NCBI RefSeq assembly: GCF_003151135.1 | Contig: NZ_QEQK01000003.1 | Location: 186,001 to 250,000, forward strand | Direction: 5' to 3' | Length of the DNA stretch: 64,000 bases | From: Abyssibacter profundi | GTDB taxonomy: Bacteria > Pseudomonadota > Gammaproteobacteria > Nevskiales > OUC007 | Shown: positions 30,836-35,077 of the stretch, piece after piece | Position numbering within the stretch: position 1 is the first letter of the stretch | How the letters are laid out: every line of letters starts with the position of its first letter | Notes under the pieces: generated by a model | What the model saw: only the letters and a program-made list of their open reading frames with translations | What the model was told of the DNA's origin: nothing | Databases searched by the model: none | Program-made: the position numbers and the translations under genes

Positions 30836-32482
30836 ATGCGCCCCAAGGGTGCTTCGGCGGCCGCTTGGTCCCAGCTCGGAGCTGCGGTCGAGGCCCTCGG
30901 CCAGCGACGCACGCCCGAGCTGTTCGCGGCAGAGCCTGATCGCGTCGAGCGCATGAGCCTTGAGGCGGCTGGCCTCTACCTGGATTTTTCCAAGCAGCGC
31001 GTGGACGCAGCCGGCCTCGAGGCCCTGTGGTCGCTCGCCCAGAGCGCTCAGGTCACGGACCATCTGCGTCAGCAGTTTGCGGGCGATGCGGTTAATTTCA
31101 CCGAAGATCGCGCCGCGCTGCACATGGCCTTGCGCGCACCGCGCAATGCGCATCAGCCCCCCGGCGGGCCGGCGATTGCCGAGGCCGTCCATGAGGTGCT
31201 CGATCGCATGGAAGCCTTTGTGCACCGGGTGCGCTCCGGGGCTTGGACTGGCGCGACGGGAGAGCCCATCACCGATGTTGTCAACATCGGAATCGGGGGC
31301 TCCGACCTGGGTCCACGCATGGTCTGCGAGGCGCTGGCCGAGCAGGTGCGCGGGCCGCGGCCGCATTTTGTCTCCAATGTCGATGCTACGGAGCTCTCCC
31401 GGGTGTTGGCCGGCTTGCGACCGGCTTCGACGCTGTTCGTCGTGACCTCCAAGTCGTTCGGTACGGCAGAAACCCTGGCCAATGCGCGCAGCGCTCGGGC
31501 CTGGCTCGTGGATGCATTGGGGGATGCCGCCGTCGCCAAGCATTTCGTGGCCGTGTCGACGGCGGCCGAGCGCGTGTCTGACTTCGGCATTGATGTCGAC
31601 AATATGTTCGGTTTCTGGTCCTGGGTAGGTGGGCGCTACTCACTGTGGTCGGCGGTGGGTTTGTCGATCGCCTTGTCGCTGGGTATGGACGGCTTCCGTG
31701 CCTTGCTTGCCGGTGCCCATGCCATGGATGCGCATGTCCGTGACGCACCGCCGGAGGGCAACGCGGCGGTTTGGATGGCGTTGATCGGTATCTGGAATAC
31801 CAATGGTTTGCAGCTGCCATCCCAGGTGATCGTCCCTTATGCCCAGGCCCTGGCGCGCGTGCCGGCCTATTTGCAGCAGCTGGAGATGGAGTCCAACGGT
31901 AAGACTGTCAACAGTGACGGGGTGGCTGTGCAGCAACAAACAGTCCCTGCGCTGTGGGGTGACGTGGGCACCAACGGCCAGCATGCCTTCTTCCAAATGT
32001 TGCACCAGGGGCCGACGGCCCTGCCGGTGGACTTCATCCTGCCCGTCTCGCTGGACCACGGTCATCCCGATCAGCACCGGATGCTGATCGCGAACTGTCT
32101 CGCGCAAAGCGAGGCGCTGATGCAGGGTAAATCGGCAGGCCAGGTGCGTGAGGAGCTGAGGTCTCAAGGTTTGTCGGGCCAGGCTTTGGAGGACGCCGTT
32201 CCCCATCGCGTGTTCGAAGGCGGCCGGCCCAGCACCACCATTTTAATGTCCTGCATCGACGCCCGTTCGCTGGGCGCCTTGCTGGCGCTCTACGAGCACA
32301 AGGTGTTTGTCCAGAGCGTGGTCTGGGGAATCAACGCCTTTGATCAATGGGGTGTCGAGCTGGGCAAGCAGCTCGCCAGCGTCATCGACGACGAGCTGCG
32401 GCTGGCCGTGCCCGGCGAGCACGATCCCTCCACGGCCGCACTGCTGCACCGCATTGTGGATGGCCGGACTGCCGAAGGTTGA
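30836..32482 (+). CDS. pgi: Glucose-6-phosphate isomerase
   Basis: 548 residues. Interconverts glucose-6-phosphate and fructose-6-phosphate. Family signatures: VNIGIGGSDLGPRMV, FVSNVDATELS, VTSKSFGTAETLANA, FWSWVGGRYSLWSAVGL, the catalytic-Glu segment LEMESNGKTVN, GTNGQHAFFQMLHQG and NAFDQWGVELGKQLA. The N-terminus aligns with E. coli Pgi, supporting the ATG at 30836 although no Shine-Dalgarno is visible. It follows panD after 49 bp that hold interlocking inverted repeats. Confidence 0.97.
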   Translation: MRPKGASAAAWSQLGAAVEALGQRRTPELFAAEPDRVERMSLEAAGLYLDFSKQRVDAAGLEALWSLAQSAQVTDHLRQQFAGDAVNFTEDRAALHMALRAPRNAHQPPGGPAIAEAVHEVLDRMEAFVHRVRSGAWTGATGEPITDVVNIGIGGSDLGPRMVCEALAEQVRGPRPHFVSNVDATELSRVLAGLRPASTLFVVTSKSFGTAETLANARSARAWLVDALGDAAVAKHFVAVSTAAERVSDFGIDVDNMFGFWSWVGGRYSLWSAVGLSIALSLGMDGFRALLAGAHAMDAHVRDAPPEGNAAVWMALIGIWNTNGLQLPSQVIVPYAQALARVPAYLQQLEMESNGKTVNSDGVAVQQQTVPALWGDVGTNGQHAFFQMLHQGPTALPVDFILPVSLDHGHPDQHRMLIANCLAQSEALMQGKSAGQVREELRSQGLSGQALEDAVPHRVFEGGRPSTTILMSCIDARSLGALLALYEHKVFVQSVVWGINAFDQWGVELGKQLASVIDDELRLAVPGEHDPSTAALLHRIVDGRTAEG

Positions 32483-32551
32483 GCCGTCTGCTGCTAGTTG
32501 TGGGGCCTTCCGGTACTGTATGAGCCCCTCTTACGAGCAATGGAGTGCGAA

Positions 32552-32920
32552 ATGATGCGAACTGCAAACCGCTGGATCGTGGCCGGGCTGGTCAGCGTGC
32601 TGGTGAATATGGGTGTGCTGGGCGCGGCTTCTGCCGCCATGGTGGGGACGCAGGAAGCCATGCGTGGGGATCACCGTGCGCAGATCGATCGGGTGCTGTC
32701 CCGCGATGATGTTCGCCAGACGCTGCTGGCCTATGGCGTTTCCGAGGAACGCGTGGATGCCCGGCTGGATGCCATGACCGATGCCGAGTTGGCGCAGCTG
32801 GCCGACGAATTCGAGCAGATGCCGGCTGGCGCCGGGCTGGTCGAGGTCGTCGGGATCGTCTTCATCGTGCTGATCATTCTGGAGCTGGTCGGCGTCACCA
32901 ACGTCTTCAGCAGCTTCTGA
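32552..32920 (+). CDS. PA2779-like small membrane protein
   Basis: 122 residues. A signal sequence or first membrane segment (WIVAGLVSVLVNMGVLGAASAA), then a soluble helical part with the family pattern RVLSRDDVRQTLLAYGVSEERVDARLDAMTDAEL split by turns, and a C-terminal membrane helix GIVFIVLIILELVGVTNVF. This fits the Pseudomonas PA2779 family, which is normally encoded beside a PA2778-type peptidase, as here. GGAG at 32542-32545 supports the ATG at 32552. Function unknown. Confidence 0.85.
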   Translation: MMRTANRWIVAGLVSVLVNMGVLGAASAAMVGTQEAMRGDHRAQIDRVLSRDDVRQTLLAYGVSEERVDARLDAMTDAELAQLADEFEQMPAGAGLVEVVGIVFIVLIILELVGVTNVFSSF

Positions 32921-33840
32921 ACCGACTGATCCTGCTCGCAGCCGTCGTGCTCGGCGGCTGCGCGCATCTCCCCTCCGCCGAGCGTGCGGGGTCAGGGCCG
33001 CTGTTGGAACTGCACCAGACGCCGTTCTTTCCACAGCAGCGTTATCAATGTGGTCCGGCGGCCCTGGCAACACTGCTGGTTGATAGCGGTGTGGAGACCT
33101 CGCCCGCGACCCTGATCGATCAGGTTTGGATTGAGGGCCGTCAGGGGAGCCTGCAGCCAGAGTTACTCGCCGCCACGCGCCGGGCCGGGCGGCTACCGGT
33201 GGTGCTTGAACCGCAGCTGGATGCGCTGGGGGCGGCCATTGAAGCGGGCTACCCCGCACTGGTGCTGCTGAACCTGGGGCCGCGCTGGTGGCCGATGTGG
33301 CATTACGCCGTCGTCATCGGGATGAGTCAGGATGGTTGGCTATTGCGCTCCGGGACCGAACCGCGACGATTCATGGATCATCGCGCGTTTGAGCATGCCT
33401 GGCACGGCGGGGGGCGCTGGGCGGTGATCGCCGCGCATCCCAGTCATGTGCCGCGTCCGGCCCACCTCGAAGCCTGGATTCGTGCCGCGGATGACCTGGC
33501 GCGTGTCGGCTTCTCCGCGCTTGCCGAGCAAGCACTGGCCTCGGCCACAGGTCGCTGGCCGGATGCCGCGCTGGCGTGGTTTGCCTATGGCAACCAGCAA
33601 GCCGCAGCAACCGATTGGTCATCTGCGGCCCAGGCGCTCACGCGCGCCGTTGCGCTACGCCCGGACTGGACACCGGCGATGAATAACCTCGCGACCGTCT
33701 GGCTGAGCTTGGACTGTCCCGAACGCGCGCGTCCTCTGATGCCCCGATTGGCCTCCGCGCCCGAAGACTATGCGGCGAAGACCCTGGCGGAGTTTCAAGC
33801 CCATCAGGCGACCGGCCCCTGTCGCTATGACCCCCAATAA
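32917..33840 (+). CDS. PA2778-like lipoprotein, C39-like cysteine peptidase with TPR domain, probable CUG start
   Basis: 307 residues from CTG. The catalytic region is PFFPQQRYQCGPAALATLL (Cys45) with later MWHYAVVIG (His), a papain-like C39 pattern. The C-terminus holds TPR-like repeats (ALAWFAYGNQQAA, ALRPDWTPAMNNLATVWLS). Reading from CTG at 32917 gives the lipoprotein signal MNRLILLAAVVLGGC; the GTG at 32947 would leave only MLGGC with no hydrophobic part. The CTG overlaps the PA2779-like stop as CTGA, like the ATGA overlaps elsewhere here. No ATG, GTG or TTG lies in frame between about 32840 and 32946. Confidence 0.82.
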   Translation: MNRLILLAAVVLGGCAHLPSAERAGSGPLLELHQTPFFPQQRYQCGPAALATLLVDSGVETSPATLIDQVWIEGRQGSLQPELLAATRRAGRLPVVLEPQLDALGAAIEAGYPALVLLNLGPRWWPMWHYAVVIGMSQDGWLLRSGTEPRRFMDHRAFEHAWHGGGRWAVIAAHPSHVPRPAHLEAWIRAADDLARVGFSALAEQALASATGRWPDAALAWFAYGNQQAAATDWSSAAQALTRAVALRPDWTPAMNNLATVWLSLDCPERARPLMPRLASAPEDYAAKTLAEFQAHQATGPCRYDPQ

Positions 33841-33985
33841 TGCGCATTGAGCAAGGCCCGGGCCGGGCGGCCAGCCGTCCCTTGGGTGCGGGCAGCTGGT
33901 CGGGCGGCAAAAGCGCCTGGCTGCGACCAGTGTTTCTGCAGCGTCTGGGTCGCCGCTGTGCTGCGGGGTGGGCGAGACGGCTGAA

Positions 33986-35077
33986 CTAATCCGCGGCTTC
34001 GAGTTGCTGCAAGGCCCATTGCACATGCTCGCGGACCAATGGCGAGGGATCATCCAGCGCCCCCCGCAGCGCCTGCCGACTCTCGTCGCTGGCTGTCGCG
34101 TTGCCCAGGGCCACCGCAATATTCCGTCGCCAGCCGGCGTAGCCCGTCCGGCGGATGGGCATCCCTTCTGTCCTCGAGAGGAATTCGTCCTCTGACCAGG
34201 CGAATAAATCGACCAGGCGGGCGGTGTCGAGGCCGTGGCGTGGTGCGAAATCCGGTTCGCGTGTCGCCTGGGCATAGCGATTCCACGGGCACACGAGCTG
34301 GCAGTCGTCACAGCCAAAAATCCGGTTGCCCATGGGCTTTCGCAGGCCTTCCGGAATAGACCCCTTATGTTCGATGGTCAGGTAGGCGATACAGCGCCGG
34401 GCGTCGAGTTGCTGGGGCCCGGTAATCGCTTGCGTGGGGCAGATCTCCATACACGCCGTGCAACTGCCGCAGAGGTTTTTGACCGGCGGGTCATCGTCCA
34501 CCGGCAAGGCCACATTGGTGAGAATCTCGCCCAGAAAGAACCAGGAGCCAGCATCGCGATGCAGCAACAGGCTGTGCTTGCCGATCCAGCCCAGGCGCGC
34601 ATCTCGTCCCAGTGCCTTTTCCAGGACCGGGGCGCTGTCGACAAAGGGGCGCGACAGTGCCTCAGGTGCCGCTTCTTGCAGTCGCCGCGCCAGCTGCTTG
34701 AGGCGGCCGCGCATGAGTTTGTGATAGTCGCGGCCCAGTGCATAGCGCGAGACATAGGCACGGTCCGGGTCATCGAGGCAGGCCTGCATGGCGTCGGCCG
34801 ACTGCGTCCGGTAATTCATGCGCACCGAAATACAGCGGATCGCTTCGGGCTGTAGCCGGGCCGGGTCGGCGCGCAGATCGGTATGCCGAGCCATGTAGTC
34901 CATGCTGCCATGGCGGCCTTCGCGCAGCCATTGGTGCAGGTGTTCCACGTCTTCAGCGAGGTCAAAGCCGGTGATGCCGACGCCATCAAACCCAAGCTCT
35001 GTCGCCCAGTCGCGGATACGGCCGGCGAGGACCTCGGGTGAGGGGGTGGCGTTGGGGGGCTGGGTCTTCACCCTCAT
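33986..35077 (-). CDS. queG: Epoxyqueuosine reductase
   Basis: 363 residues. Cobalamin-dependent reduction of epoxyqueuosine to queuosine in tRNA, the step after QueA. Two [4Fe-4S] cluster motifs are complete: CGSCTACMEICPTQ and GCDDCQLVCPWN; also YALGRDYHKLM, DSAPVLEKA and GKHSLLLHRDAGSW. The C-terminus has HEAT-like repeats for tRNA binding. The start at 35077 is set by divergence from nnr: only 12 bp separate the two start codons, and an exact TATAAT begins at the queG start. The 145-bp gap beyond its stop, convergent with the PA2778-like gene, shows only weak hairpins. Confidence 0.96.
   Translation of the reverse strand: MRVKTQPPNATPSPEVLAGRIRDWATELGFDGVGITGFDLAEDVEHLHQWLREGRHGSMDYMARHTDLRADPARLQPEAIRCISVRMNYRTQSADAMQACLDDPDRAYVSRYALGRDYHKLMRGRLKQLARRLQEAAPEALSRPFVDSAPVLEKALGRDARLGWIGKHSLLLHRDAGSWFFLGEILTNVALPVDDDPPVKNLCGSCTACMEICPTQAITGPQQLDARRCIAYLTIEHKGSIPEGLRKPMGNRIFGCDDCQLVCPWNRYAQATREPDFAPRHGLDTARLVDLFAWSEDEFLSRTEGMPIRRTGYAGWRRNIAVALGNATASDESRQALRGALDDPSPLVREHVQWALQQLEAAD

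Follow-up and report, generated by a model that had tools for sequence, protein, structure and literature searches.

Translation from CUG is rare but real in bacteria, and coupling of neighboring genes through an NTGA overlap is standard. The closest described CTG start is that of the rep gene of RepFIB plasmids (Escherichia coli F-like plasmids), a natural CTG for which most annotations use a GTG 14 codons further on, and which is backed by an older N-terminal analysis and a CTG to CTC mutation (PMC11983097). For NTGA pairs, in which the genes overlap by 4 nt, one of two models holds that the terminating ribosome itself re-initiates (PMC12548453). Here we describe a junction in a 64,000-nucleotide stretch of Abyssibacter profundi contig NZ_QEQK01000003.1 (the window) that resembles both systems. 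A gene for a predicted lipoprotein of the PA2778 family follows a PA2779-family gene, and a CTG at position 32917 overlaps the stop codon of the latter. The PA2778 lipoprotein probably starts at this CUG, where ribosomes ending PA2779 would re-initiate, with the codon fixed by the overlap. The geometry is the same as in the described NTGA pairs, while the CTG differs from that of RepFIB rep in having no Shine-Dalgarno match. We found no CTGA case in the consulted parts of the literature on CUG starts and coupling. The portion of PMC6728339 consulted names ATGA or TGATG and not CTGA, but TTGA and GTGA are absent there too, so this carries little weight, and no mention of CTGA, CTG or TTGA was found in the corresponding portion of PMC10666635. 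The apparent novelty lies in a probable CUG start that falls within the overlap, is conserved across the genus and occurs in up to three lineages, together with its apparent cause and a hairpin behind it. The features of the junction are as follows.

32552 to 32920, plus strand: PA2779-family gene (NF033919, DUF6627), ATG 32552 being its assumed start; the last codon is TTC (Phe), then TGA.
32917 to 32920, plus strand: CTGA overlap of start CTG (32917–32919) and stop TGA (32918–32920), with two bases in common; the same in two other genomes of the genus (G001 and G002).
32917 to 33840, plus strand: gene of 307 codons plus stop, counted from the CTG, for the predicted PA2778-family C39-like cysteine peptidase lipoprotein.
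32917 to 32961, plus strand: predicted signal of 14 residues, (M)NRLILLAAVVLGG, with the lipobox Cys at 32959–32961, from sequence and orthologues.
32947 to 32949, plus strand: GTG, first standard start of the PA2778 frame, rejected as start; it sits in the top of the hairpin.
32937 to 32962, plus strand: predicted RNA hairpin of 11 pairs (32937–32947 with 32952–32962) and loop 32948–32951, from folding.

The PA2778 frame reads CTG AAC CGA CTG ATC CTG CTC GCA GCC GTC GTG CTC GGC GGC TGC from 32917, and the product from this CTG would be (M)NRLILLAAVVLGGC. By motif and by eye, it would have the parts of a lipoprotein signal, an n-region NR, a hydrophobic stretch LILLAAVVL and a lipobox LGGC, and would be expected to be lipidated. 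A protein starting at GTG 32947 fails in this respect. It would begin MLGGC, which agrees with the statement of the initial annotation that this start leaves the lipobox at residues 2–5. Apart from this GTG, at −4, the 60 codons that precede the Cys in the PA2778 frame include no ATG, GTG or TTG. The initial annotation also held that a full signal is obtained only from CTG 32917. This CTG does give the best signal, but the product of CTG 32926 (MILLAAVVLGGC) also has the hydrophobic stretch and the lipobox and lacks the n-region Arg, and ‘only’ therefore becomes ‘best’. A gene finder that accepts ATG, GTG and TTG alone would cut off the signal.

Three genomes of the genus were compared, that of the window included, with G001 58% and G002 52% identical. 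All three have TTC TGA with the overlapping CTG and a Cys 14 codons later, and none has a standard start at least 12 codons before the Cys. Neither G001 nor G002 has its first standard start at the GTG position of the window, the outcome that the initial annotation named as refuting its reading, and both keep CTG at −14. Relative to the Cys, the first GTG is at −7 in these two and at −4 in the window, so GTG is not a common start. Of the 13 signal codons, 6 are identical between G001 and G002, 6 differ synonymously and 1 non-synonymously; base changes by codon position number 1, 1 and 7, so that 7 of the 9 fall on third positions (binomial 0.008). In this pair, the stretch between CTG and Cys therefore evolves like protein-coding sequence. 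By eye, the window shares with both orthologues the hydrophobic character of the signal, an Arg close to its start and the lipobox. A second CTG lies 3 or 4 codons past the first in all three genus members.

The junction was then read across four sources: 100 relatives (65 with a match), 85 genomes of the order (51 above the family cut-off), 369 class genomes (86 of them matching at 1e-40) and named records that contributed 13 loci. Both genes were located by iterated profiles before each junction was read. From 180 loci, 162 had both genes, giving 131 distinct junctions and 129 with a lipobox call, L043 and L130 being dropped because the call was absent. Left out were 18 loci without a PA2779 profile match, 16 of which (from 15 genomes) come from one genus of the order; the partial class matches G296 and G424, along with matches under the family cut-off, lie outside the survey. 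Standard starts at least 12 codons before the Cys were sought over 60 codons upstream, or as far as a stop. The Fisher and binomial values given here ignore shared descent.

The NTGA frame is present in 37 of the 129 junctions, as CTG in 21, TTG in 10, GTG in 3 and ATG in 3. Sixteen of the 21 CTG junctions have a standard start downstream and at least 12 codons before the Cys, located 1–5 codons after the CTG in 15 and 14 codons on in L037, while the other five lack one. The 10 TTG junctions are all without a second standard start. Within the order, where 22 of 37 junctions have the NTGA frame, 7 have TTG, 10 have CTG followed by ATG, GTG or TTG within 3 codons and 5 have CTG alone (G000, G001, G002, G007 and G048). 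The TTG of the order relatives occupies exactly the 32917 position. Together with the overlap kept in the genus and the displaced GTG of the orthologues, this supports the CUG start put forward in the initial annotation. The overlap, its conservation in the genus, the apparent coding character of the codons from CTG to GTG in the closest orthologues and the series of starts among relatives all come from sequence and its comparison, and from them we infer initiation at exactly CUG 32917.

On a tree of 40 rows (37 from the order, 3 others), the CTG-alone label requires three changes, two of them forced by well-supported branches; the G007 row is a long branch whose place is unsure, and the changes could be gains or losses. 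One sister pair, L010 with TTT TGA (TTG) and L014 with TTC TGA (CTG plus later starts), displays a switch at that very codon. Among the order NTGA junctions, another start accompanies none of 7 T-ending last codons versus 10 of 15 C-ending ones (Fisher 0.005). Where another start is absent, 7 of 12 last codons end in T, compared with 74 of the 442 ATY/TTY codons that the genes concerned contain. From this excess, UUG seems to be preferred over CUG at the overlaps of the order and CUG to be tolerated. The series of TTG, CTG alone and CTG with a start 1–3 codons on, at a single overlap within one order, amounts to a natural experiment in which the overlap may both impose a poor start codon and release it.

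Across the family, 8 of the 129 junctions have no standard start at least 12 codons before the Cys, namely the five with CTG alone and L093, L109 and L151; L128 and L165 also passed the 14-codon test of the script but are excluded from this count, because their lipobox was assigned automatically in a way that is incorrect or open to doubt (misparsed, or GTG at −13). With a narrower interval, beginning 30 bases before the PA2779 stop, the number is 13 of 129, L128 and L165 included, divided into 5 of 37 in the order and 8 of 92 outside it. Outside the order, the codon where a start would fit is ATT in L151 (G347) and ATA in L109 (G176), with none in L093 (G390); these are single genomes in which assembly errors are possible. 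Less clear are L116, L111 and L117, which have ATC where a start would fit and standard codons further upstream inside PA2779.

The use of CUG has an apparent cause in the end of PA2779. At 36 of 37 order loci the protein ends in Ile or Phe, and as these include 14 of the 15 outside the NTGA frame, the residue looks set by PA2779. Outside the order PA2779 mostly ends in Arg, Asn or Lys, and the constraint therefore does not extend to the whole family. Because the overlap ties the start to the last PA2779 codon, an Ile or Phe codon (ATY or TTY) would offer C or T as the shared base and make the start CUG or UUG, AUG being possible only through the rare Ile codon ATA. We infer that this Ile/Phe end brought about the CUG start. 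A general tie of the last codon to the next start is in print as the NNA-UGA C-terminal codon preference, in which the last codon of one gene goes with the next start (PMC7246954). There, the preferred start selects the last codon, whereas at PA2779/PA2778 the Ile/Phe appears to be held and the start yields.

In the proposed sequence of events, a ribosome would finish PA2779 at UGA 32918, re-initiate with initiator fMet-tRNA at the codon sharing two bases with that stop, and make the 14-residue signal peptide with its lipobox LGGC. No Shine-Dalgarno match precedes CTG 32917 (duplex +0.7) or GTG 32947 (+0.6). An unusual initiator tRNA was considered as the cause and rejected, as all 7 genomes examined, among them the five CTG-only ones, have a perfect match to the anticodon-stem pattern; ARAGORN called tRNA-Met (cat) at the 5 loci submitted (of 9 pattern loci), one per CTG-only genome. 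Given an ordinary initiator tRNA and no Shine-Dalgarno match, coupled re-initiation with low output would be the likeliest route to the CUG start. Such re-initiation without a Shine-Dalgarno sequence does occur in E. coli, with low efficiency (PMC2268962).

Several observations weigh against a CUG start reached in this way. CUG makes up 0.024% of bacterial initiation codons (PMC11497404), and reporter output from it is about 10-fold below that from UUG (Hecht et al., cited in PMC11983097). Overproduced initiation factor 3 inhibits non-canonical starts in E. coli and further lowers re-initiation without a Shine-Dalgarno sequence (PMC2268962); it acts against both features, and the weaknesses of the CUG and of the missing Shine-Dalgarno match therefore add up. 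On the contig, 36 of 39 ATGA, GTGA or TTGA junctions have a duplex stronger than +0.7, and 29 of 39 lie below −3. Stable structure just past a stop lowered re-initiation in a synthetic operon (PMC7518266). Lastly, the window differs non-synonymously from G001 or G002 at 7 of 13 signal codons (gapless alignment); it is the more distant member, and the clean coding signature thus comes from the closest pair only.

The predicted hairpin follows the CTG closely and encloses GTG 32947, with three outer pairs (32933–32935 with 32964–32966) beyond the 11-pair stem. The 50 bases from the stop fold at −27.3 kcal/mol (z −3.8 versus dinucleotide shuffles), and against synonymous shuffles the hairpin scores z −4.4 with the codon usage of both genes and −4.3 with contig usage. 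In each of the three genus members the stem stands at the same distance from the CTG, with 33 of 33 cells paired, and slid versions of the stem alignment pair 33–55% of cells. Seven of the 11 pairs vary and one has changed on both sides; covariation is not shown, with three sequences and 153 of 500 shuffles reaching the same pairing. Excess structure at p 0.05 was found in the first 54 bases at 10 of 22 order NTGA loci (11 in another run) and in the next 54 at 8 of 22. By comparison, 7 of 154 later windows show it, as does 1 of 39 further NTGA starts taken from one contig. At the 15 non-NTGA order junctions, 4 of 15 signal windows, set 14 codons before the Cys with no known start, and 13 of 120 later windows pass p 0.05. 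The excess is uneven among genomes, with p 0.03 in both G002 and G048, and none in G001 (0.20) or G007 (0.93).

A counterpart is the ribosome termination structure, a stable mRNA structure just past a stop that affects re-initiation; as described in PMC7518266, such structures are depleted at short-distance or overlapping pairs, whereas structure is enriched at the PA2778 overlap. The hairpin could be either a brake on PA2778 or a means of holding the ribosome at the overlap while hiding GTG 32947. A stronger proposal, which we regard as doubtful, is that a hairpin at the leading edge would pin the post-termination ribosome so that almost any start codon works, with the GUG hidden. If this were true, the family would tolerate CUG, and in some other genomes perhaps also AUU or AUA, much more often than is usual, as judged from the 8 of 129 junctions lacking a standard start. 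The hairpin yields a specific, testable idea of how re-initiation copes with weak starts.

Re-initiation at CUG 32917 was weighed against other ways of producing the protein. A start at a different non-standard codon, either CTG 32926 or an ATT or ATC upstream within PA2779, is improbable. CTG 32926 is in frame with the signal, a second CTG near this place recurs in all three genus members, and near-cognate codons are present upstream of CTG 32917; on the other hand, the downstream CTG drops the Arg, the upstream ATT codons differ in place among the three genus members (by eye), and the relatives place their TTG exactly at 32917. Somewhat less probable again is a start at GTG 32947, giving a product that is no lipoprotein or is without a working signal. 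Although this is the first standard start in the frame and the PA2778 profile match lies wholly past it (residues 31–275 from the CTG), it puts the lipobox too near the N-terminus (residues 2–5), has no Shine-Dalgarno match, is enclosed by the predicted hairpin and is displaced by three codons in G001 and G002, between which the codons before the GTG look constrained as protein. Equally unlikely is a −1 frameshift or stop suppression that fuses PA2779 to PA2778, as at the AUGA junction of Mycobacterium tuberculosis uPPE2–PPE2, where a fusion product is reported alongside termination-reinitiation (PMC11260477): ahead of the CTG, the PA2778 frame stays open over 69 codons, but the five CTG-only junctions have no slippery heptamer (by eye), a lipobox in mid-fusion would have no evident use, and an own ATG in the plausible interval in 64 of 129 relatives argues that PA2778 is widely a separate gene.

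Three further claims of the initial annotation, that the CTG overlaps the preceding stop, that the two genes are PA2779-like and PA2778-like and that ATGA junctions are frequent here, were borne out. The PA2779-family gene scores 110.6 bits with NF033919 (curated cut-off 40) and 85.6 bits with Pfam DUF6627 (cut-off 27); the open reading frame list puts the first start of its frame at TTG 32498. The PA2778-family protein matches NF033920 with 258.9 bits over profile positions 1–247 of 255 (curated cut-off 150), and Peptidase C39 (Pfam PF03412) marginally, with 22.8 bits against a cut-off of 22. It has QCGPAA and WHYAVV segments (by eye), which we take to have a role in the predicted C39-like peptidase.

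With two bases common to start and stop, the junction has the geometry of the NTGA coupled pairs. A home-made gene caller gave 53 pairs in the NTGA frame on the 300-kb contig, 31 of them ATGA, and CTG in this frame is unremarkable by itself (14 of 53). Among these 14, the PA2779/PA2778 pair has the top coding score from the CTG to the first standard start, a comparison that is a weak method for short stretches. A genome-wide habit of CUG starts was rejected, as the other 13 pairs score lower before their first standard start, on one contig (299,525 of 3,739,894 bases). No sigma-70-like promoter site was found in 32380–34000. One terminator-like stem with a T-rich tail lies inside the PA2778 gene, at 33111–33124 of the window, at about chance level (shuffles average 0.8).

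Two further observations concern relatives in the order. L085, L086 and L088–L091, from one genus, have PA2778 homologues without a PA2779 match. The frame upstream of these resembles INAFDQWGVELGKQL, the end of pgi (by eye), and in the window pgi directly precedes PA2779, so PA2779 may have been lost in these loci, leaving PA2778 directly after pgi. The PA2778 signal peptides of L010, L014, L016 and L057 have an RRAxxPA-like stretch in common, whose codons form a G+C-rich palindrome in L010 and L014, strongest in L014 (z −4.2 and −3.8 versus synonymous shuffles).
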